DNA of 64,000 nt from Parasphaerochaeta coccoides DSM 17374 (GTDB lineage: Bacteria > Spirochaetota > Spirochaetia > Sphaerochaetales > Sphaerochaetaceae): positions 1,798,001-1,862,000 of the forward strand of contig NC_015436.1 in NCBI RefSeq assembly GCF_000208385.1, given 5' to 3'. A model generated the notes under the pieces. It was not told the origin of the DNA, searched no databases, and saw only the letters and a list, made by a program, of their open reading frames with translations. The position numbers and the translations under genes are program-made. Below are positions 2,509-51,049 of the stretch, one piece after another. Each line of letters starts with the position of its first letter. Positions within the stretch are counted from its first letter, which is position 1.

Positions 2509-2774
2509 GTTCGATGCGGAACAATATAGGAATATGCCATCCAAGGCCAACAAGGTCAAGCAAATCGATGTCGGTTTTCTGTGTGTTTTCCATGGTGATT
2601 TTTTCAACTCTTCATGGCACGGAGGAGATGGTAAGGACATATGCATAGGTAAGGGTATGTTGCAAAAGTCTGGAGCGTCCCCAGCCTCATAATCTTCACA
2701 TTTCTTGCTTTCTTGCGTTGCACACGTTTGAAACGGAATACAGGCGACAATATCCGCATCTTTAGATTCGAGTA

Positions 2775-2820
2775 ACCCGAAAGTATTATATCTTTTCACG
2801 TCAAAATCATACTTTCGGGT
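2775..2820 (+). promoter_or_regulatory. Paired-motif regulatory site of lipoprotein gene 1
   Basis: ACCCGAAAGTAT (2775-2786) and its exact inverse ATACTTTCGGGT (2809-2820) form perfect 12-bp arms around a 22-bp spacer, with arm centres 34 bp apart (about three helical turns). The same arrangement precedes each fimbrillin-like lipoprotein in the window. The site lies 130 bp before the GTG start. It could be a two-site operator for a dimeric regulator or an RNA hairpin in the leader. The whole 2821-2950 stretch downstream is non-coding leader. Confidence 0.7.
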
Positions 2821-2950
2821 AATCGTCACTATTACCGATATCCCCTACATTAACTCATCAATTCATCATGCTTTGCCAGATTAACCCCTTCCTTCATTAT
2901 ATTTTGATGAATGATTTTTGGTTTTCCATGGAAAGATAAGGGTAAAAAAA

Positions 2951-5296
2951 GTGAGAAAGAATGGTATTGTGCTTGCAAGTCTCCTCATGGTGCTTTTCGT
3001 CTTTGCTTCATGCAACGGCAACCTATGTGTCTCACACGCCAACGACGTGCGCTTCACCACGGAGATAATAGGACGCAAGGCCACCGCTGACTCCGGCTGG
3101 AGTATCGGGGATGAAGTCGGCATCTACATGGTTAAGGCCGGTGGGGACGTGGCTACTGTCGCCGCGACCGACCGTGACAATGTGCAGTACGTGGCAGATA
3201 CGGCGGGCATCAACTTCTCCGGCTTCTCCCCTGTTAACGCCTCCAACCCCTTGAAATGGGATGACATCTCCACCCCTGCCATCACATACTTTGATTTCAT
3301 CGCCTACTATCCTTACGAGTCTCCCATCGCTGATACCACAGCTCTACCCATAAACGTCTATCCGGGTTCCGGGGAACAGGATACCGGAAAGGCTGACTTC
3401 CTGTGGGGGAAGAAGGCCGGTGTCCAGAACAATACATCGACGGTCTGCCTGACGCTCAGTCATGCCCTCTCCCGCCTTGTCGTCAATGTCATTCCAAGTA
3501 CCACCGTTGATAAGGATGCCATCAACGGTGGTACGCTTGTCGCCACGGTCACGGGCTTGAACACTCAGGCAACAATCAATCTGGATACCGGAGATGTGAC
3601 CCCTGTAATCCCCAGCGACATTGATATCGTCATGAAGGACATCTCCGGCACGCTCACGGATGCGGAAAGAACCGCAGGGAACCGCCGTTTTGAGGCTGTA
3701 CTGATACCTGTGGACAACACGTTTGCCCTGGATAACGTGAGCCTGGAGTTTACCCTGACTGATGGTAGTGGTACTCATACATACACGTGGGCAGCAACTT
3801 CCGTAGCGACCTCTGACCAAGGCAAGATTCACTTTGACGCGGGAAAGCAGCATGTCTACAACATGACGCTCAATACGAAGACGGATGAAGTCGCCATCGC
3901 GGAGATTCGCATAGGGATAGTGGACTGGGACACCGGAAGCGGGGTGAACGGGGCAGCGGAAAAGGCATACAGCCTCACCTTTGGGGACAACGGAGCCACG
4001 AGAGGCAGTGCTCCGGGACGGATGCATGCTCATGGGGGAAGCCAGGTCACACTGCCGGGTTCCGGAACATTGGAGAGGGACAGCCATGATTTCTACGGAT
4101 GGAATACTCTGCCTGATGGCAACGGAAGCCATTATGCCGCCAGTGAGTCCTTCACCATGCCCGCCGATGACGTGACGTTATATGCACAGTGGAAGGTGAT
4201 GGTGAAGGTCAAGTCAGTCTCCGCTGGAGGTTTTCACACGTTAATTCTGAAGATGGACGGGACGCTCTGGGCAACAGGAAACAACGAATATGGTCAACTG
4301 GGTGTCGGCACTTCAGGTACCGTGAACAGCAAAAGCACGCCAGTGCAGGTCATGACTGATGTCGCGGCTGTCTCCGCCGGATGGTCCCATACGATGATCC
4401 TGAAGAATGATGGCACGCTCTGGGCGACTGGACGCAACAAAGTGGGTCAACTGGGTGTCGGTGATAATACCAACAGAAGCACGCCCGTGCAGGTTTCGTC
4501 CATGGGTTCTGATGTCGCGGCTGTCTCCACCGGAGAGTCCTATACGATGATTGTGAAAAAGGACGGCACACTCTGGGCGACTGGACAAAATACTGCCGGT
4601 CAACTGGGTGACGGCACTACGGATGACAGAAACAAGCCTGTGCAAGTCAAGGGTTTGAATGGGGTCGGGTTCATGACTGATGTCGAGGATGTCTTCGCCG
4701 GAGGGTTCCATACGATGATTCTGAAGAAGAACGGGACGCTCTGGGCGACTGGATTCAACTATTTTGGTCAACTGTGCGACGGCACTACGACCATCAGAAC
4801 TACTCCCGTGCAGGTCCAGGATTCTAGTGGGGTCGGGTTCATGACTGATGTCGCGACTGTCTCCGCCGGATGGGCCCATACGATGATCCTTAAGAAGGAC
4901 GGCACGCTCTGGGCGATTGGAAAGAACGAGCAGGGCCAACTGGGTGTCAGCGATAAGATAAACAGAAGCACGCCCGCGCAGGTCAGCTCCAATGTTGCGT
5001 CAGTCTCCGCCGGAGAGTCCTATACGATGATTCTGAAGAAGGACGGCACGCTCTGGGCGACTGGATCAAACGATTCGGGTCGACTTGGTGTCGGTGATAA
5101 TAACGACAGAAGCTCGCCCATGCAGGTTTCGTCCATGGGGTCTGATGTCGCGGCTGTCTCCGCCGGGTTCCATACGATGATTCTGAAGAAGAACGGCACG
5201 CTCTGGGCGACTGGATACAACTTTTTGGGTCAACTGGGTCTGGGTGACAGCGGTTCCGGAACCGATAGAAGCACGCCCGAACAGGTAGTTTTCTGA
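2951..5296 (+). CDS. Lipoprotein: fimbrillin-like domain, InlB B-repeat and seven RCC1 repeats (copy 1)
   Basis: A 781-residue protein starting at GTG 2951, preceded by AAGGG. The signal peptide ends in the lipobox FASC with cysteine at residue 21, so the protein is probably anchored in a membrane by lipid. Residues 27-335 resemble Bacteroidetes fimbrillin-like (Mfa-like) domains, with landmarks such as DEVGIYMV, FIAYYPY, HALSRLVV and FDAGKQHVYNMTL. Residues 340-414 form a Listeria/Bacteroides-type B-repeat ending DDVTLYAQW. Residues 418-781 hold seven RCC1-like units with the core ILKKDGTLWATG...GQLG, enough for one seven-bladed propeller. A TTG at 2918 opens the frame but would bury the signal peptide. 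A role in surface binding is inferred from the architecture; there is no catalytic motif. Confidence 0.88.
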   Translation: MRKNGIVLASLLMVLFVFASCNGNLCVSHANDVRFTTEIIGRKATADSGWSIGDEVGIYMVKAGGDVATVAATDRDNVQYVADTAGINFSGFSPVNASNPLKWDDISTPAITYFDFIAYYPYESPIADTTALPINVYPGSGEQDTGKADFLWGKKAGVQNNTSTVCLTLSHALSRLVVNVIPSTTVDKDAINGGTLVATVTGLNTQATINLDTGDVTPVIPSDIDIVMKDISGTLTDAERTAGNRRFEAVLIPVDNTFALDNVSLEFTLTDGSGTHTYTWAATSVATSDQGKIHFDAGKQHVYNMTLNTKTDEVAIAEIRIGIVDWDTGSGVNGAAEKAYSLTFGDNGATRGSAPGRMHAHGGSQVTLPGSGTLERDSHDFYGWNTLPDGNGSHYAASESFTMPADDVTLYAQWKVMVKVKSVSAGGFHTLILKMDGTLWATGNNEYGQLGVGTSGTVNSKSTPVQVMTDVAAVSAGWSHTMILKNDGTLWATGRNKVGQLGVGDNTNRSTPVQVSSMGSDVAAVSTGESYTMIVKKDGTLWATGQNTAGQLGDGTTDDRNKPVQVKGLNGVGFMTDVEDVFAGGFHTMILKKNGTLWATGFNYFGQLCDGTTTIRTTPVQVQDSSGVGFMTDVATVSAGWAHTMILKKDGTLWAIGKNEQGQLGVSDKINRSTPAQVSSNVASVSAGESYTMILKKDGTLWATGSNDSGRLGVGDNNDRSSPMQVSSMGSDVAAVSAGFHTMILKKNGTLWATGYNFLGQLGLGDSGSGTDRSTPEQVVF

Positions 5297-5614: not shown

Positions 5615-7957
5615 GTGAGAAAGAACGGTATTGTGCTTGCAAGTCTCCTCATGGTGCTTTTCGTCTTTGCTTCATGCAACGGCAACCTATGTGTTTCACA
5701 CGCCAACGACGTGCGCTTCACCACGGAGATAGGACGCAAGGCCGCCGCTGACTCCGGCTGGAGTATCGGGGACGCGGTCGGCATCTACATGGTGGAGGCC
5801 GGTGGGGACGTGGATACTGTCGCCGCGACCGACCGTGACAATGTGAAGTATGTGGCAGATACGGCGAGCATCAACTTCTCCGCCTTCTCCCCTGTTGACG
5901 CCTCCAACCCCTTGAAGTGGGATGACATCTCCACCCCTGCTATCACAGAGTTTGATTTCATCGCCTACTATCCTTACGTGTCTCCCATCTCTGATACCAC
6001 TGCTCTATCCATAAACGTCTATCCGGGTTCCGGGGAACAGGACACCGGAAAGGCTGACTTCCTATGGGGGAAGAAGGCTGGTGTCCAGAACAACACCTCG
6101 ACAGTCAGCCTGACGCTCAGTCATGCCCTCTCTCGCCTTGTTGTCAACGTTGGGCCAAGTACCACCGTTGATAAGGATGCCATCAACGGTGGTACGCTTG
6201 TCGCCACTGTCACGGGCATGAACACGCAGGCAACAATCGACCTTAACAGCGGAGATGTGACCCCTGTAATCCCCAGCGACATTGATATCGTCATGAAGGA
6301 CATTTCCGACACCCTTACGGCTGCGGAAAGAACCGCAGGGAACCGCCGTTTTGAGGCTGTACTGATACCTGTGGACAACACTTTTGCCCTGGATAACGTG
6401 AGCCTGGAGTTTGTCCTGACCGGTGGTGCTGGCGATGGTACATACACATGGGCAGCAACTTCCGTAGCGACCTCTGACCAAGGCAAGATTCACTTTGACG
6501 CAGGCAAGCAGCATATCTACAACATGACGCTCAATACGGATACTCATGAAGTCGCCGTCGCGGAGATTCTCATAGGGATAGTGGACTGGAACACCAGAGG
6601 CGAGGTGAACGGGGCAGCGGAAAAGGCATATAGCCTCACCTTTGAGGACAACGGAGCCACGAGAGGCAATGCTCCGGGACGGATGTATGCTCATGGGGGA
6701 AGCCTGGTCACACTGCCAGGTTCCGGAACATTGGAGAGGGACAGCCATGAGTTCTCCGGATGGAATACTCTGCCTGATGGCAACGGAAGCCACTATGCCG
6801 CCAGTGAGTCCCTCACCATGCCCGCTGATGACGTGACGTTGTATGCACAGTGGATGGTGAAGGTCAAGTCAGTCTCCGCTGGAGATGATCACACAATGAT
6901 TCTGAAGACTGATGGTACTCTCTGGGCGACTGGATCCAACTATTACGGTCAACTGGGGGTCGATGATATTACCACCATAAGCACGCCCGTGCAGGTCAAG
7001 GATTCTAGTGGGGTCGGGTTCATGACTGATGTCGCGGCTGTCTCCGCCGGAAGTCATCACACGATGATTCTGAAGAAGGATGGCACGCTCTGGGCGACTG
7101 GAGAGAACAAAGCTGGTCAACTGGGGGTCGGTGATAATACCGACAGAAGCACGCCCGTGCAGGTTTCGTCCATGGGTTCTGATGTCGCGGCTGTCTCCGC
7201 CGGAGGCAGGCACACGATGATCCTGAAGAAGGATGGCACGCTCTGGGCGACTGAAAATAAGACTCCCGTGCAGGTCAAGGGGTTTGGTGGGGTCGGGTTC
7301 ATGACTGATGTCGCGGCCGTCTCCGCCGGATACGATCACACAATGATTCTGAAGAAGGATGGCACGCTCTGGGGGATAGGACAAAATTATAATGGCCAAC
7401 TGGGTGATGGCACTTCGGGTTTAGGGAACAGCACAAGCACGCCTGTGCAGGTCAAGGATGATACCGATGGTTCCGGGTTCATGACTGATGTCGCGACTGT
7501 CTCTACCGGATTCTTCCATACAATGATTTTGAAGAAGGACGGCACGCTTTGGGTGACTGGATCCAACAGCCATGGTCAACTGGGTGACGGCACTACGGAT
7601 AGCAGAGTCATACCTGTGCAGGTCAAGGATGATACCGATATTTCCGGGTTCATGACTGACGTCGCAGCTGTCTCTGCCGGACTGTATTACACGATGATCC
7701 TGAAGAAGGACGGTACGCTCTGGGCGACTGGACGAAACAATTTGGGTCAACTGGGTCTCGGCAATAAGACCGACAGTGAGATTCCCGTGAAGGTCGCATC
7801 CATGGGAACTGATGTCGAGGCTGTCTTCGCCGGATGCAAGCACACGTTGATCCAGAAGAAGGACGGATCGCTCTGGGCGACTGGATTTAATACTAACGGC
7901 CAACTGGGTGTCAGTGATAATACCAACAGAAGCACGCCCGAACAGGTAGTTTTCTGA
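5615..7957 (+). CDS. Lipoprotein: fimbrillin-like domain, InlB B-repeat and seven RCC1 repeats (copy 2)
   Basis: A 780-residue close paralogue of copy 1 with the same GTG start, AAGGG ribosome site, signal peptide and lipobox cysteine. The fimbrillin-like domain is nearly identical to copy 1, with scattered substitutions (for example VSLEFVLTGGAGDG against TLTDGSGTH). One B-repeat and seven RCC1 units follow. The third unit is damaged: after GTLWAT the sequence jumps to ENKTPVQV, so the GQLG half of that unit is missing through an in-frame deletion of about 20 residues. The propeller region varies between copies far more than the anchor domain, chiefly in the loops between TPVQV and the next SAG.HTM strand. 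This suggests that diversity is concentrated in the exposed head. Confidence 0.88.
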   Translation: MRKNGIVLASLLMVLFVFASCNGNLCVSHANDVRFTTEIGRKAAADSGWSIGDAVGIYMVEAGGDVDTVAATDRDNVKYVADTASINFSAFSPVDASNPLKWDDISTPAITEFDFIAYYPYVSPISDTTALSINVYPGSGEQDTGKADFLWGKKAGVQNNTSTVSLTLSHALSRLVVNVGPSTTVDKDAINGGTLVATVTGMNTQATIDLNSGDVTPVIPSDIDIVMKDISDTLTAAERTAGNRRFEAVLIPVDNTFALDNVSLEFVLTGGAGDGTYTWAATSVATSDQGKIHFDAGKQHIYNMTLNTDTHEVAVAEILIGIVDWNTRGEVNGAAEKAYSLTFEDNGATRGNAPGRMYAHGGSLVTLPGSGTLERDSHEFSGWNTLPDGNGSHYAASESLTMPADDVTLYAQWMVKVKSVSAGDDHTMILKTDGTLWATGSNYYGQLGVDDITTISTPVQVKDSSGVGFMTDVAAVSAGSHHTMILKKDGTLWATGENKAGQLGVGDNTDRSTPVQVSSMGSDVAAVSAGGRHTMILKKDGTLWATENKTPVQVKGFGGVGFMTDVAAVSAGYDHTMILKKDGTLWGIGQNYNGQLGDGTSGLGNSTSTPVQVKDDTDGSGFMTDVATVSTGFFHTMILKKDGTLWVTGSNSHGQLGDGTTDSRVIPVQVKDDTDISGFMTDVAAVSAGLYYTMILKKDGTLWATGRNNLGQLGLGNKTDSEIPVKVASMGTDVEAVFAGCKHTLIQKKDGSLWATGFNTNGQLGVSDNTNRSTPEQVVF

Positions 7958-8268: not shown

Positions 8269-10893
8269 GTGAGAAAAAACAGCATTGTATTTGTAAGCAT
8301 CTTCCTGATGCTTTTCGTTTTTGTTGCATGTTCCGGCGAAGTAGAGGTTCCGCACGCCAGCGCCGTGCGCTTCACCACGGAGATCGGACGCAAGGTCATG
8401 GCTGACTCCGCATGGCAAGCCGGTGATGAAGTCGGCATCTACATGGTAGAACATGGTGCCTTGGCTGCCAGTGACACCACTGGTACCCGTGCCAATAAAG
8501 CGTACAGGGCCGATGCTTCCAGTCCGATTTCTGGCTTCTCCCCTGTCGATGATGCCAACACCTTGACGTGGGATGACTTCGCCGCTGGTGCGGACAGCAC
8601 GTTCGACTTCATCTCCTACTATCCTTATGTGTCATCCATCTCTGACACCACGGCTCTGCCCATAGATGTCTATCCGGATTTTGGGGAACAGGATACGGGA
8701 AAGGCTGACTTCCTGTGGGGACACAGCAAGGACGTGGAGACATACGGTGACGGTATCCAGAACAATACGTCAATGGTACAGCTGAAGCTTGACCACATGC
8801 TCTCCCACGTGGTTGTCAACATTGCCCCAAGCGACAGCATCGATAAGGCTATCATTACTGAAGATGGCGCTACGCTCGCGGCTACGGTCAAAGGTGTCAC
8901 CACGCACGCTGCGATCAATCTGAATACCGGAACAGTGACTCCTCGTGGTGATGACACGGCGTCCATTCACATGAAGGATATTTCCGACACCCTCAGCCAA
9001 GCTGACCAGAATGCGGGAAAGCGCAGGTTCGAGGCCGTGCTGATACCTATGGCTCACACGCGGGAGCTGCTGGATGCTTTGGAGCTGGAGTTTGTCCTCA
9101 CTGATGCCAGGGGTAGTAGCACTACATACACATGGACACCGACGTCCGTAGCTGAGAACAAGGAAACCCTGATTCACTTTGACGCGGGCAAGCAGCATGT
9201 CTACAACATGATGCTCAATACCACGACATCCCATGTCGCCGTTGCCGCGATTGACATGGGAATCGTGGCGTGGGATGAATGCGCCCGTGAAAACTGGGAA
9301 ACGGTCACTTCATACCGTGTCTCCTTTGATGCCAACGGAGCCGAGAGCGGAGACGAACCGGAACAGGTAGTCACCTATGAAGGATGCAAAATCACACTGC
9401 CGGGCAGCGGAACACTGGAAAAGAGCGGCTATTTCTTTGCCGGATGGAATACTGAGATTGATGGCAGCGGAGATTCATATGCCGCCGGAGACTCCTTCGT
9501 GATTCCTGGGCAGGATGTGACACTCTATGCAATCTGGGTGGAGAAGAACCAATACAGCATCTCCTTTGATGCCAGCGGAGCCACGGGAGGCAGTGCTCCG
9601 GGACGGATGTATGCTCATGAGGGAAGCCAGCTCACACTACCGGGCAATGGAACACTGGAAAAGAGCGGTTATTTCTTTGCCGGATGGAATACTGAGATTG
9701 ATGGCAGCGGAGATTCATATGCCGTTGGTGAGTCCTTCACCATGCCCTCCAATGACGTGACGTTGTATGCACAGTGGCTGGTGAAGGTCAAGTCAGTCTC
9801 CTTCAAAAGTTTTCATACGATGCTTCTGAAGATAGACGGCACGCTCTGGGCGACTGGACAGAACACTCATAGTCAACTGGGTGTCGGTGGTAATACCAAC
9901 ATAAACACGCCCGTGAAGGTCATGACTGATGTCGCGGCTGTCTCTGCTGGATACTACCATACGATGATTGTGAAGGAGAACGGCACGCTCTGGGCGACTG
10001 GAAACAACCAGTATGGTCAACTGGGTCTGGCTAGCATTCTCGGAACCGACAAAAACACGCCCGTGAAGGTCACGTCCATGGGTGCTGCTGTCAAGGCTGT
10101 CTCCGCCGGAAGTTATCACACGATGATTTTGAAAAAGGACGGCACGCTCTGGGCGACGGGGCGGAACAACTATGGTCAACTGGGAGACGGCACTACGGAT
10201 AGCAAAGGCATGCCTGTGCAGGTCAAGGCCAGTACCACCCCCAACGACTTCATGACTGATGTCGAGGCTGTCTCTACCGGAGTCTATCATACGATGATTC
10301 TGAAGAAAGACGGCACGCTCTGGGCGACTGGATACAACGAATATGGTCAACTGGGTGACGGCACTTCGAATGACAGAAGCACGCCTGTGCAGGTTTTGTC
10401 CATGGGTGCTGATGTCGCGGCTGTCTCCGCCGGAGAGAACCATACGATGATCCTGAAAAAGGACGGTACGCTCTGGGCGACAGGACAGAACACCTATGGT
10501 CAACTGGGGGACAGCGATTCGGGAACCAACAAAAACACGCCCGTGCAGGTCAAGGATGATACCGATATTTCCGGGTTCATGACTGACGTCGCGGCGGTCT
10601 CCGCCGGATACGGTCATACGATGATCCTGAAGATGGATGGCACGCTCTGGGCGATTGGACGAAACGAATATGGTCAATTGGGGGTCGGTAATCATAACGA
10701 CACAAGTACTCCCGTGCAGGTTTCGTCCATGGGTTCAGATGTCGCGGCTGTCTTCGCCGGAGAAGCCTATACGATGATTTTGAAAAAAGACGGCTCGCTC
10801 TGGGCGACTGGATTTAATACTGACGGTCAACTGGGTCTGGGTGACAGCGGTCCGGAAACCCACAGAAGCTCGCCCGAACAGGTAGTTTTCTGA
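8269..10893 (+). CDS. Lipoprotein: fimbrillin-like domain, two InlB B-repeats and seven RCC1 repeats (copy 3)
   Basis: An 874-residue paralogue of the two preceding genes, starting at GTG 8269 after AAGGGG. The signal peptide ends in FVAC. The fimbrillin-like domain is recognisably homologous but much more diverged and slightly longer. Two adjacent B-repeats are present, sharing the string EKSGYFFAGWNTEIDGSG, which points to a recent internal duplication. Seven intact RCC1-like units follow and the C-terminus SPEQVVF matches copies 1 and 2. It is the last gene of the array and the only one followed by a long GC-rich hairpin. Confidence 0.88.
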   Translation: MRKNSIVFVSIFLMLFVFVACSGEVEVPHASAVRFTTEIGRKVMADSAWQAGDEVGIYMVEHGALAASDTTGTRANKAYRADASSPISGFSPVDDANTLTWDDFAAGADSTFDFISYYPYVSSISDTTALPIDVYPDFGEQDTGKADFLWGHSKDVETYGDGIQNNTSMVQLKLDHMLSHVVVNIAPSDSIDKAIITEDGATLAATVKGVTTHAAINLNTGTVTPRGDDTASIHMKDISDTLSQADQNAGKRRFEAVLIPMAHTRELLDALELEFVLTDARGSSTTYTWTPTSVAENKETLIHFDAGKQHVYNMMLNTTTSHVAVAAIDMGIVAWDECARENWETVTSYRVSFDANGAESGDEPEQVVTYEGCKITLPGSGTLEKSGYFFAGWNTEIDGSGDSYAAGDSFVIPGQDVTLYAIWVEKNQYSISFDASGATGGSAPGRMYAHEGSQLTLPGNGTLEKSGYFFAGWNTEIDGSGDSYAVGESFTMPSNDVTLYAQWLVKVKSVSFKSFHTMLLKIDGTLWATGQNTHSQLGVGGNTNINTPVKVMTDVAAVSAGYYHTMIVKENGTLWATGNNQYGQLGLASILGTDKNTPVKVTSMGAAVKAVSAGSYHTMILKKDGTLWATGRNNYGQLGDGTTDSKGMPVQVKASTTPNDFMTDVEAVSTGVYHTMILKKDGTLWATGYNEYGQLGDGTSNDRSTPVQVLSMGADVAAVSAGENHTMILKKDGTLWATGQNTYGQLGDSDSGTNKNTPVQVKDDTDISGFMTDVAAVSAGYGHTMILKMDGTLWAIGRNEYGQLGVGNHNDTSTPVQVSSMGSDVAAVFAGEAYTMILKKDGSLWATGFNTDGQLGLGDSGPETHRSSPEQVVF

Positions 10894-38143: not shown

Positions 38144-38244
38144 AATAGCGGATTATTATCAACAGGTGTATATTAATTCAAATCGTTGACCACGTATGGT
38201 CGATGGATTACATCATCTTCTCAAAGATAAAGAGGAAAACAACT

Positions 38245-39264
38245 ATGAGAGAGAAAAAATTAGGTATTACGGTTCTTGCGATCGTCCTTGTGGCGCTTTT
38301 CGCATTTGTTGCATGTGATGGTAACAAGGTAAATGTGGCCAACAACGGTGAAGTACGCTTTGCCACAGGCATTCGCAAGGCTACGGCTAATTCCGAATGG
38401 GAAGCCGCTGATTCAGTCGGTATCTTCATGGCTGATGCCGATGATACTCTGTCCTATACCGACGCCGCAACCTCAACCCCTGATCCGGAACGTTACAACA
38501 AACAATACAGGGCTGACACAGCGGCTCAGACGTCCGGTTTCACTGCTATTGATGCCGCCAACACCTTGAAGTGGGATGACATTACTACCACCCCCAAGTT
38601 CGACTTCATCGCCTATTATCCGTATGTGGCGACTATCACTACCCCCGCAGCCCTGCCTATAAGTGTCGCGGCACCTTCCGCGGAACAGGTTACTGGAACG
38701 GCTGACTTCCTGTGGGGACGCACGGACGATATAGAGAACAACCAGTCAGTGGTAGCCTTGCTGCTTAATCACAAGCTTTCCCGCCTGGTCGTCATTGCTA
38801 AGCCTGGCGTTGAACTGGGAGTCAATGATCTTGATTCCGCGCTGACCGTACATGTCACCGGCCTGAACACGACAGCCACGCTCGACCTGAATGACGGAAC
38901 CTTGACACCTATCGTTAGTGTCGCGGATATCCAAATGAAGGACATCACCACTCAAGCTGATCTGGACGCGCACCAGCGCCGGTATGAAGTTGTGGTAATA
39001 CCTACGGCTCAAGTGACCGCTTTTGCAAATGTGGGATTGAGATTTACCGACGTTACGGCTTCTAATACTACATACCTATGGAAAGCATCTGAAAGCGTAG
39101 CTGAGGTTGATGAGACCAAGATTCACTTTGACGAAGGCAAGCAGCATGTCTACAACATAACGCTGAACAAGGCCAATGATGAAGTCGCCGTTGCCGAAAT
39201 CAATATTGAGATTGGCGATTGGGAAGATGGAGATGGTGGAAACTGGGGCGCTGTCCTCAACTAA
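38245..39264 (+). CDS. Fimbrillin-like lipoprotein without C-terminal head (copy 4)
   Basis: A 339-residue lipoprotein starting at ATG 38245 with AGAGGA upstream. The signal peptide ends in FVAC. The whole mature protein is the fimbrillin-like anchor domain seen in copies 1-3, with the same landmarks in the same order: DSVGIFMAD, FDFIAYYPY, TADFLWG, HKLSRLVV, RRYEVVVIP and FDEGKQHVYNITL. It stops at the point where the others continue into B-repeats, so it is a natural single-domain version. It is followed by a strong terminator and stands alone. It might be a structural subunit to which headed paralogues are added; that is inference. Confidence 0.87.
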   Translation: MREKKLGITVLAIVLVALFAFVACDGNKVNVANNGEVRFATGIRKATANSEWEAADSVGIFMADADDTLSYTDAATSTPDPERYNKQYRADTAAQTSGFTAIDAANTLKWDDITTTPKFDFIAYYPYVATITTPAALPISVAAPSAEQVTGTADFLWGRTDDIENNQSVVALLLNHKLSRLVVIAKPGVELGVNDLDSALTVHVTGLNTTATLDLNDGTLTPIVSVADIQMKDITTQADLDAHQRRYEVVVIPTAQVTAFANVGLRFTDVTASNTTYLWKASESVAEVDETKIHFDEGKQHVYNITLNKANDEVAVAEINIEIGDWEDGDGGNWGAVLN

Positions 39265-47468: not shown

Positions 47469-50400
47469 TCACGGAGCAGGAGCATTAATCAACGTGGGAT
47501 AACCGTCAGCGGCATCAAACTTCCAGATTGCAAGATCCCATACCGCGCCCGTCCAGTTAGCGTCAGAGGACCAGAAGTCCGAATTTTGGAATGTCGTGTT
47601 TGGCTTTTTTGCCACTATAGTGCTATCCACAATAGAGACAACATAAGGAGAAATTGCCACTAAGACTGGAGGCCCTCCGGAAGAATCATCTGAGACATAC
47701 CGTTTGTATGTGGTGTTGGAGGGAGGGGGAGACCCCTTATAGCCAGCGAATAAACCAATCCATGCGTTTATGGCCTGTGTTGTCTTAATTTCCTGCGTGA
47801 TTATCGCCACGATGCTTTTTACGTTATTAAAGTTATTGGATACGAAACCGATGAACCCTCCAATCTGGGAATTTCCTACCACAGCGTTAACAACCACATA
47901 CACGTTACTGAGCAATGCCACATCTCCCAGTTGCCCGGCATACCCCCCGGCATTGTCGTAGCTGCCGCTGCTGACAGTTCCCACACGGGCGTAAGAGTCA
48001 TATACGCCTCCGCTGGAATGTCCCCCGACGAAACCTCCTGTCGAAGGCCCCCCGGCAATCTTTCCGTTCACATGGACGGAACTCTCCTTGATGTCCGCGC
48101 GACCCAAGTACCCGGCGAACCCGCCGACAACCCCTATGCTCCCACTCCCATTGTATGTGATGTCGCCCTGGATAATCGTCGCACTCCTGGCTATCAGCCT
48201 CCCTGTCGCACTATCCGAATTGCTCATGCCTCCTACGAAACCGCCAGTGAAGTCTCCCCCAGTAATGTTCCCGACTTCCACACGGCTGTCAGTGATTTCA
48301 ATATTGCTTCCGCTCATGTATGCGACAAAACCGCCGACCATTCCTGTTCCCTTGATCTCCCCACTGACATGGACGCTGCTTTTGTCAACCTGTCCGCCAT
48401 CCATGATTGTTCCTACAAACCCACCGACATAGGTTTTAGAAGCATCAGTGCCACTGGCGAGCGTGACCGTCCCTCCGCTCATGTCCACGGAACTGTTCCC
48501 GACGACCGCCCCGCTGTCCATGAATCCCACGAAGCCTCCGGCGTTCTTCCACCCTTCCACCGTGGAAGAAGCGTTCCTTCCCCTGGCACTGCCCCTGAGT
48601 GTGTTGCTACCACTTCCGTTGAGATATCCGGCAAAACCTCCTGCCGAACCAGTGCTTGTATCACCGCTGAGATATCCGGTGGCAATCACCCGACCGAAGA
48701 CCACCGATGCATCTTCGATGGTGCTGTCGTCAGCCTTGCCGACAAACCCTCCGGCATACCGCTTGCCTTCCACCGTTCCTACGATGGTATCGACACGATC
48801 AGACGGGAAAGAGATGTTCGTCTGTTCAGTGTGTCCTACGAACCCTCCGGCCAGTGAGGCACTCACGTAATCAACCACGGCATAGCTGTTCGTTATTTCC
48901 GAGAGGTCGGTTGCTCCTACAAGTCCTCCGGCAGAACTGTCCCCCCACGCGCTACCACTGCTCACGCTCCTGACGATGGCATGGCTGCCTGTTATCATGC
49001 TCTGATCCACTATTGTACCCGCCAAGCCCCCGGCGAACCTTATGCTACGAACGCTCTCGGCGATGACCTCGCTGTCCTCTATATACCCTACCTCATGGAA
49101 GCCGACAAGGCCGCCTGCATAGGCTCCCCCCTCGACCGTCGCATAGCTCGCGGATCGCATGATGGTGCCGTGAAAATTTAATCCGACCAGCCCTCCCGTG
49201 TAACCTGTAGCCGCAAGACTCTCCACATACCCGCTCACGAAGCAATCCTCTATCGTCCCCTCATTCACACCCACCAAGCCGCCAACTTCACTGAAACCTG
49301 TATCAGTTCCCTTGACCACCACGTTCGTCAGGCCAAGGTTATACACGCTTGCGCTAATGGCCATCGACGCAAAGAAACCTACATTTACTGATGAAGACGT
49401 AATCCGCAGCCCGTTGACCACATGCCCTTTCCCATCAAACTTCCCCATGAAATTTATAGCCGGCCATGTCAGGGAATTTGCAGCCAAGTACTCGCCCAGC
49501 TCTATGTCACGGGCTAGCTCGTAGTAACTGCCGGCCGTACTGCCGTGAGTCTCCAGCACTCCCTTCAACCCACGGGCGGTATATATCATGTAGGGGTCTG
49601 TCTGCGTACCTGTGCCGGTGTAGTCCGGGATGTTCTCCTGTTTGAACGAGCCGTTCCCCCCGTCCGTCCACGCCGCCACGCCCACCGGATTTACATCAAT
49701 GCCCCACCCCGTGAGCTTCACGCTGTAGGTGCTGTGGTACCCCGCCTCGAAAACCTTAGTGTCCGGGATGTTCCACGTATATGTCTTTCCCGTGCTGGTG
49801 AGCGTGAAGACCATTTTCCTATTTGGATAGGTGACTCCGTCATGCGGCACGATGATCGCCGCTCCTGCCGTCCCCGCCGCGTTCACCGGCACTTTTCCTC
49901 CTGCCGCATCCGTCTGCCTGTTGCTTATGCTCCCGTCTTCAAAATTAATCTCAGCCATGGTAGGCATGCTCTGGTAAACCACGCTCAACCCCGCAAGGTC
50001 GCTCGTTTCCAGCCCTTCTCCCGCACTAATCGCCAGCGTCAGCTTGGAAAGCTTGTGCTGGAAGGTGAGATCAACGTCTACGGGCACGTCCTTGCCCACC
50101 CCGTCCACACGCGCGAAGATCAAATCATCTTCATACGGATCCTCTTGTTCCCTCACGTCCACCTTGTAGATGTATGCGGACCCTCCGTTCAGGATTGGGG
50201 TATTTCGGTAGGGATAATAGGCAAACAAACCCACCTCGGTGCCGTCTGCCGGAAAGAAGGCGTCCCCCCAGAACTTCCCCGTCAAGGAATCATATGTGTA
50301 GGGGTAGTTCACCACGCCGTTGAGGATGTTGGCAGGGTTCACGTCGGTACCTGTGGAGACCATGTACAGCCCTATCTCATCTCCCTCTTCCCACTCCCAT

Positions 50401-50543
50401 GAGCTGTCAGAATCCCCCGCCGCACGAGCGGAGAAGGCTATGCCTTCCTTCTGAGCGACCGGCGGACGCAGATCCTGGATGCAGGAGGACAGCACTAATG
50501 CGAGGACAACAAGAGCCAGCATTGCTATAGGGGACTTCCTCAT
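47469..50543 (-). CDS. Lipoprotein: fimbrillin-like domain and GLUG repeats (copy 5)
   Basis: A 1024-residue lipoprotein from ATG 50543. The signal peptide MRKSPIAMLALVVLALVLSS precedes the lipobox cysteine at residue 21. Residues 30-300 match the fimbrillin-like anchor of copies 1-4 in layout: WEWEEGDEIGLYMVS, LFAYYPY, HKLSKLTL, AEINFEDGSI and YTWN. From about residue 330 to 960 there are about seventeen GLUG-type units with the core GGFVG or GGLVG (for example GGLVGVNEGTIEDC), expected to form a beta-helix. The end, FDAADGYPTLI, is common in such proteins. The frame continues upstream through an octanucleotide tract to ATGs at 50690 and 50765. A surface-binding role is inferred. Confidence 0.87.
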   Translation of the reverse strand: MRKSPIAMLALVVLALVLSSCIQDLRPPVAQKEGIAFSARAAGDSDSSWEWEEGDEIGLYMVSTGTDVNPANILNGVVNYPYTYDSLTGKFWGDAFFPADGTEVGLFAYYPYRNTPILNGGSAYIYKVDVREQEDPYEDDLIFARVDGVGKDVPVDVDLTFQHKLSKLTLAISAGEGLETSDLAGLSVVYQSMPTMAEINFEDGSISNRQTDAAGGKVPVNAAGTAGAAIIVPHDGVTYPNRKMVFTLTSTGKTYTWNIPDTKVFEAGYHSTYSVKLTGWGIDVNPVGVAAWTDGGNGSFKQENIPDYTGTGTQTDPYMIYTARGLKGVLETHGSTAGSYYELARDIELGEYLAANSLTWPAINFMGKFDGKGHVVNGLRITSSSVNVGFFASMAISASVYNLGLTNVVVKGTDTGFSEVGGLVGVNEGTIEDCFVSGYVESLAATGYTGGLVGLNFHGTIMRSASYATVEGGAYAGGLVGFHEVGYIEDSEVIAESVRSIRFAGGLAGTIVDQSMITGSHAIVRSVSSGSAWGDSSAGGLVGATDLSEITNSYAVVDYVSASLAGGFVGHTEQTNISFPSDRVDTIVGTVEGKRYAGGFVGKADDSTIEDASVVFGRVIATGYLSGDTSTGSAGGFAGYLNGSGSNTLRGSARGRNASSTVEGWKNAGGFVGFMDSGAVVGNSSVDMSGGTVTLASGTDASKTYVGGFVGTIMDGGQVDKSSVHVSGEIKGTGMVGGFVAYMSGSNIEITDSRVEVGNITGGDFTGGFVGGMSNSDSATGRLIARSATIIQGDITYNGSGSIGVVGGFAGYLGRADIKESSVHVNGKIAGGPSTGGFVGGHSSGGVYDSYARVGTVSSGSYDNAGGYAGQLGDVALLSNVYVVVNAVVGNSQIGGFIGFVSNNFNNVKSIVAIITQEIKTTQAINAWIGLFAGYKGSPPPSNTTYKRYVSDDSSGGPPVLVAISPYVVSIVDSTIVAKKPNTTFQNSDFWSSDANWTGAVWDLAIWKFDAADGYPTLINAPAP

Positions 50544-50690
50544 AAAGCGCAACCTACTCTCTGGGACTCTGGGACTCTGGGACTCTGGGACTCTGGGACT
50601 CTGGGACTCTGGGACTCTGGGACTCTGGGACTCTGGGACTCTGGGACTCTGGGACTCTGGGACTCTGGGACTCTCTGGGTCTCTGCACAT
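50544..50690 (-). other. Upstream reading frame running through the octanucleotide tract
   Basis: An ATG at 50690 has AGGA six bases upstream, a better ribosome site than that of the lipoprotein start itself (TAGG nine bases upstream). Its frame translates the repeat as SPRVPESQ units, and with the present 14 copies it is in frame with the lipoprotein. With one copy fewer it would stop at TAG (50556-50554), ten bases before the lipoprotein ATG. With one copy more it would stop at a TGA overlapping that ATG (ATGA). Whether it is translated is unknown. Confidence 0.55.
50563..50674. repeat. Octanucleotide tandem repeat, 14 copies
   Basis: GGGACTCT is repeated 14 times without interruption (112 bp), with partial degenerate copies at both ends. 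The unit length is not a multiple of three, so every copy gained or lost shifts the reading frame. It begins 20 bp upstream of the lipoprotein ATG. Long pure tracts like this are prone to replication slippage and are typical of phase-variable (contingency) loci. Confidence 0.97.
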
Positions 50691-50825
50691 GCTATATCCT
50701 GGGGGGGAACCGCTTCTCCCGCAAATCCTGTGGAATCCGCTTTGTTCCCGATCAGAGGTATTCATCAGATACTACGTATCTACAACAATCCAACTTGATT
50801 TTATCACTCCAGCCGGAATCTGCAT

Positions 50826-50923
50826 ATTACCAAAAAGTACTATTTTTAGGGAATAGGCATTACCCAAAGGTATTAATCTACGCATGAAACTGTATATTTA
50901 GCATTGTATTAACCTTTTGGATG
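50826..50923 (-). promoter_or_regulatory. Motif cluster upstream of lipoprotein gene 5
   Basis: Read on the minus strand, ATACCTTTGGGTAAT (50873-50859) and GTACTTTTTGGTAAT (50840-50826) are two same-direction copies of the half-site found before lipoproteins 1-4. Their centres are 33 bp apart. A third, weaker copy in the opposite direction (plus-strand TTAACCTTTTGGATG) lies at about 50909-50923. The gap 50544-51049 (506 bp) holds these, the octanucleotide tract, the upstream frame and the terminator at 50988. Nothing else is recognisable. Confidence 0.6.
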
Positions 50924-50987: not shown

Positions 50988-51017
50988 AAAAAAGGGGAAC
51001 ATGGTTACCATGCTCCC
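50988..51017 (-). terminator. Rho-independent terminator of the Ldh-family gene
   Basis: On the minus strand GGGGAGCATGGT pairs with ACCATGTTCCCC with one mismatch, followed by TTTTTTGTTG. It lies just past the stop of the dehydrogenase gene at 51050. Confidence 0.9.
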
Positions 51018-51049
51018 CCGGCTGTGCATCTGCTGTCTACGGTCAGATG

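Follow-up and report, generated by a model that had tools for sequence, protein, structure and literature searches.

Start-codon repeat arrays in a fimbrillin-like lipoprotein family of Parasphaerochaeta coccoides: a probable case of translational phase variation

The genome analysed here, a single contig of 2,227,296 bp from a member of the Sphaerochaetaceae, encodes 49 fimbrillin-like lipoproteins with a PF13149 domain, and 26 of these genes carry a repeat array at the start codon (24 GA arrays and two octamer arrays, all in this one family). We consider it probable that the arrays are contingency loci, through which the 49-gene family undergoes classical translational phase variation driven by simple-sequence repeats. 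A sequence-only reading of one array had proposed a repeat-driven switch that sets three expression states by translational coupling, and had called a switch of this kind unusual. With 26 such arrays in one family the tract is not an isolated curiosity. The repeat-driven part of the proposal is supported by these arrays, by their random frames, by the intact open reading frames and by the variable array lengths between paralogues with near-identical flanks. Coupling in three states is not established, since the GA loci favour the upstream ATG and the repeat-free paralogues start there.

Results

The octamer array in the window

The window, the whole stretch of 64,000 nucleotides that was analysed, has a GC content of 51.9%; that of the Parasphaerochaeta coccoides DSM 17374 genome is 50.6% (PMC3726837). 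All features of the locus described here lie on the minus strand. Fourteen copies of TCCCAGAG, all perfect, occupy 50670-50559 within a period-8 run at 50674-50559 (116 nt, 14.5 copies, 100% match). They are flanked by an upstream leader ATG (50688..50690) and by the inner ATG of a lipoprotein gene (50541..50543), from which the MRKSPIAMLALVVLALVLSSC signal peptide is read. The repeat has no stop in any frame, and all three frames encode the same cyclic peptide, SQSPRVPE, because 8 and 3 have no common factor. When the frames were recomputed for 10-18 copies, the outcome cycled with a period of three. Fourteen units, the number in this assembly, fuse the leader frame to the lipoprotein ORF. 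With 13 units the leader ends at a TAG (50554..50556), 10 nt upstream of the inner ATG and overlapping its ribosome site, and with 15 units it ends at a TGA (50540..50542) that overlaps the inner ATG as ATGA. The copy number, the stop-free frames and the three outcomes thus agree exactly with what had been read from the letters. The ribosome site that had been assigned to the leader ATG is also present, an AGGA at 50697..50700 (50700-50697 in reading direction) with a 6-nt spacer, though at -4.1 kcal/mol it is weaker than the site of the inner ATG, where the Shine-Dalgarno-like GTAGGTTG (AGTAGGT, 50552..50558) reaches -10.0 kcal/mol. A further ATG at 50765 offers a second in-frame start into the fused ORF and has no visible ribosome site.

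The lipoprotein CDS (47469..50543) counts 1024 codons when read from the inner ATG, or 1073 from the ATG at 50690. Its product matches the fimbrillin-like domain Mfa_like_1 (PF13149) at 49683..50408 with 159.4-162.9 bits (E 2e-46), where the curated cut-off is 27 bits, and a GLUG motif (PF07581) has its best stretch at 49230..49286. The protein has a lipobox signal peptide, judged by sequence pattern, and the lipobox cysteine (codon 50481..50483) is Cys21 of an alignment in which this residue is invariant in 49 of 49 members. In lipoproteins the lipobox cysteine becomes the first residue of the mature protein, and this is predicted here whichever start is used. An intrinsic-terminator-like hairpin (50993..51019) ends the preceding Ldh_2 gene, which suggests a separate transcription unit for the lipoprotein gene, probably with a promoter of its own. 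The interval between array and lipoprotein gene holds no sigma-70-like promoter match. Searches of NCBIfam and of solved structures gave no match, and a search of genome contigs, from which the own genome may be excluded, returned no close protein relatives.

Repeat arrays across the family

A search of the 2.2 Mb genome for three octamer copies with at most two mismatches found two places only, each upstream of a PF13149-family gene; the octamer array is therefore not a product of chance. The second place has 21 copies and precedes a paralogue 64% identical to the window gene. Another 24 PF13149 genes begin with (GA)10-48 arrays, which start at the G of an ATG and almost always follow a strong Shine-Dalgarno sequence. 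The 16-mer GAGAGAGAGAGAGAGA, which is (GA)8, has 250 and 89 matches on the two strands of the genome, and the 24 arrays sum to exactly 250 and 89, so each long GA array of the genome lies in this one family. Consistently, a search for ATG(AG)9 returned exactly 24 sites, which are the 24 arrays. Over the 49 members, PF13149 occurs in 49, RCC1-like repeats in 37, List_Bact repeats in 21 and GLUG in 5. Neither PF13149 nor such GA arrays were found in any of 119 sampled relatives, and the octamer array was found in none of 100 relative genomes.

The window contains four further PF13149 lipoprotein genes (2987-5296, 5651-7957, 8308-10893 and 38203-39264). Three of them form a tandem group; they have RCC1-like repeat arrays, and purine-rich runs precede their probable GTG starts. 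The gene at 38203-39264 is much shorter than the other three. Poly-G tracts of at least 10 nt number three in the genome, with no clear switch arrangement. A G8 homopolymer lies upstream of another PF13149 match (L079, genome position ~1653934-1653941), between a short upstream ORF (ATG GAA AAA TAA) and a GTG start, where it could change the spacing of the ribosome site.

Frame states and array length

The arrays are pure, lie in the 5' coding region and have a unit length that is not a multiple of three, as in contingency loci. At all 26 loci one copy-number class gives the full ORF, whereas in the remaining classes a stop follows shortly behind the array; one and only one of n-1, n and n+1 yields the fusion, which places every locus at most one slip away from it. 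In the assembly 7 of the 26 loci are fused, 9 need the loss of one unit and 10 the gain of one, and the division into 7 fused and 19 not fused fits a random third (P(X<=7) = 0.32). Leader frames that are out of frame stop between 20 nt before and 14 nt after the inner ATG at all loci. Although the leader is out of frame in 19 cases, the downstream ORFs are open over 691-1199 codons at 26 of 26 loci, and the genes have thus not decayed. Since genes that are never expressed should decay, the out-of-frame genes are presumably expressed at times, via slippage or via the inner start. Paralogue pairs whose flanks (210 nt) are at least 95% identical differ by a mean of 12 GA units, and only 1 of 23 such pairs has equal whole-unit numbers, array lengths being taken from one assembly in which some may carry errors. 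Array length thus appears to evolve far faster than the flanks, as judged from paralogues within one genome.

Start codon usage

Several relatives without long arrays indicate where translation begins. Five members with only (GA)4 have an in-frame start at the same upstream ATG (MREN/MREK...), and two further members that lack a long array read in frame as MNERE... and MNEKK.... Since these members are in frame from the upstream ATG, the GA arrays seem to be expanded versions of codons 2-3 in a real gene. Shine-Dalgarno energies, computed with the canonical anti-Shine-Dalgarno sequence, average -9.0 kcal/mol for the leader and -4.8 kcal/mol for the inner ATG, and the leader has the stronger one at 23 of 26 loci. 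Half of the GA genes (12) have an inner start that reads MVFLTIL or MVILTIL, an n-region without a basic residue; the inner starts of the other 12 give a good basic n-region of the MNKSSRP type, and these could be usable. Thus, with a far better upstream ATG at nearly all GA loci and repeat-free paralogues that start there, to equate the fused state with expression is the simpler reading.

At the two octamer loci and at one GA locus the order is reversed and the inner ATG is the one with the stronger ribosome site, so that fusion may be unnecessary there. In the octamer subfamily the inner-ATG energies are -10.0 kcal/mol for the window gene, -6.8 for the 21-copy gene and -16.9 (AGGAGGT) for a paralogue with one unit, and the leader ATG site is kept in the latter two. 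The one-unit gene, which is the closest octamer paralogue (tblastn 86%), reads in frame as MCRVPERRLRFMRKSP. In the paralogue at 2170111 an apparent remnant of a decayed repeat is seen, CTGG replaces the inner ATG and the upstream start is in frame. Judged by these sites, the inner start is likely used to some extent in the octamer subfamily.

A shared upstream motif

Upstream of the window gene lies a 14-bp motif, TACCTTTGGGTAAT (50859..50872), a candidate regulon site, with a degenerate second copy, TACTTTTTGGTAAT (50826..50839), 33 bp 3' of the first. The genome has 42 copies of the pattern TACYTTYGGGTAAT and one of its reversed form; 41 of the 42 are followed, 225-451 nt downstream and in the strand of the motif, by a PF13149 domain. 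The sole copy outside the family (L119, ~2556-2569) lies ~75 nt before a predicted membrane protein of 167 aa (ORF 2646-3149), possibly a further regulon member. Members of the octamer subfamily are preceded by motif copies at 33-34 bp spacing, with four copies 33 bp apart at the 2170111 paralogue. The pattern resembles a promoter or regulator element common to repeat-bearing and repeat-free members, and its distribution suggests that the PF13149 genes form a shared regulon.

Discussion

Phase variation by repeats in the 5' end of surface protein genes provides the most probable framework for these arrays. Translation would begin at the ATG just upstream of the array, and the array would lengthen the n-region of the signal peptide by a neutral, disposable extension, made of SQSPRVPE repeats in the octamer genes and of Arg-Glu repeats in the GA genes. 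Slippage in the cell would alter the unit number. In the right class modulo three the leader would continue through the lipoprotein ORF, so that the gene would be on, while the other two classes would stop near the inner ATG and leave the gene off or expressed at a low level. Each array would slip on its own, so that the genes would be switched independently. Cleavage at the lipobox cysteine would remove the extension along with the signal peptide; the mature protein would then be constant, and its presence or amount alone would change. In the octamer genes some expression out of frame is probable, from the inner ATG, and the switch there may be one between high and low rather than between on and off. 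Within this explanation the fused class is read as on, and the window gene is probably on at present. The products are presumably exposed at the surface, where a variable repertoire may benefit the bacterium.

The coupling proposal places the start of the lipoprotein at the inner ATG and lets the position of the leader stop set three levels by reinitiation or coupling. The exact stop positions in the window (fusion, a TAG 10 nt before the start, a TGA overlapping it) invite this view, as do the 13-unit TAG within the inner ribosome site, the strong Shine-Dalgarno sequence and proper signal peptide that go with the inner ATG of the octamer genes, and the clustering of out-of-frame stops from -20 to +14 nt around the inner ATG at all 26 loci. 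However, at the GA loci the ribosome site of the inner ATG is mostly weak, and half of the genes have no basic residue in the signal peptide read from there; repeat-free relatives (the MREN types and the 2170111 paralogue) lack a usable inner ATG and are in frame from the upstream start; the ATGA overlap recurs at just one GA locus; and the inner site is predicted to be almost equally accessible in the RNA with 13, 14 and 15 units. We regard three-state coupling as unlikely for the family, and as a possibility chiefly for the octamer genes, whose strong inner ribosome site would permit graded output by coupling, or else little or no effect. A search of the literature with partial coverage showed no precedent, by title or abstract, for a repeat switch of the coupling type. 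A switch in which copy number alters RNA structure was also considered and was rejected, because the predicted accessibility of both ribosome sites barely shifts with n.

If the inner ATG were always used, the arrays could be tolerated junk in a short upstream ORF. The strong inner ribosome site of the octamer subfamily and the intact genes at out-of-frame loci are in line with such inert repeats. Neutral repeats would, however, not be expected to place all long GA arrays of a 2.2 Mb genome at the start codons of one family, the array-free members need the upstream ATG, and 12 genes have inner starts without a basic n-region, which makes this account very unlikely. It is extremely improbable that the repeat encodes a functional, repetitive N-terminal peptide of the exported protein: all frames are open and give the same cyclic peptide, but the repeat lies upstream of the lipobox cysteine and would be lost with the signal peptide, and it is out of frame at 19 of 26 loci. 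Phase variation by frame switching at the upstream ATG therefore remains our preferred account. An extended form of it, in which a non-pathogenic gut spirochaete holds a 26-locus, repeat-switched lipoprotein repertoire as one regulon and the octamer subfamily adds a graded third state, with leader stops on the inner ribosome site or start feeding reinitiation, appears quite unlikely.

Among known systems, the opa genes of Neisseria carry (CTCTT)n in the signal-peptide coding region. They seem functionally closest by analogy, as a surface family of many genes in which each member has its own array in the signal-peptide segment, frames shift independently and the array is absent from the mature product. 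In contrast to opa, the unit here is 8 or 2 rather than 5 nt, the array directly follows the start codon in the n-region, and the 26 arrays serve fimbrillin-like lipoproteins of a spirochaete instead of beta-barrels. One report mentions a gonococcal strain with 11 phase-variable opa genes (PMC11868660). In Haemophilus influenzae, tetranucleotide loci have the repeat just after the start codon, and octanucleotide arrays lie upstream of hmw1A/hmw2A, outside the coding frame (PMC2651432). The tetranucleotide loci share frame switching and the placement of the array, directly 3' of the start codon in genes related to the surface, but they are scattered over unrelated genes. With the Mfa_like_1 (PF13149) lipoproteins of Bacteroidota, the present family shares domain and lipobox; it differs in that most members are fused to RCC1-like, List_Bact or GLUG repeats, in its spirochaete host and in its start-codon repeats.

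Similar starts occur elsewhere. When ~85,000 species genomes were scanned for ATG(AG)9 preceded by a ribosome site, 11 stretches matched, and carriers of ATG(AG)n are gut-bacterial MAGs that include Mailhella, Synergistaceae and Oscillospiraceae. Several arrays apiece are present in a Mailhella MAG (L127, L129) and in a Synergistaceae MAG (L123, L130); those on L127 and L130, of which some are in frame and others out of frame, belong to FkbM methyltransferase and glycosyltransferase genes, and in other carriers acyltransferase and TonB receptor genes are concerned. The start of ATG plus AG array is identical and several genes are surface-related, but the gene families are others, and the arrangement is thus apparently convergent. 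By their sequences, the Mailhella and Synergistaceae MAGs apparently have independent multi-locus phase variation, and it seems that the ATG(AG)n start arises repeatedly in bacteria on surface-related genes. In the literature searched, which was covered in part, we found no paper on the lipoprotein repertoire described here.

Parasphaerochaeta coccoides was isolated from the termite hindgut, and the host is probably not a pathogen. Why multi-locus phase-variable genomes seem confined to pathogens is an open question (PMC11868660). If the host is the termite-gut isolate, its 26 arrays, built from two unrelated repeat units in one expanded lipoprotein family whose members mostly have a common upstream motif, would be a clear counter-example to the pathogen-only pattern. 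The repertoire would then offer a test case for whether such switching helps to evade immunity or to live in a crowded gut.
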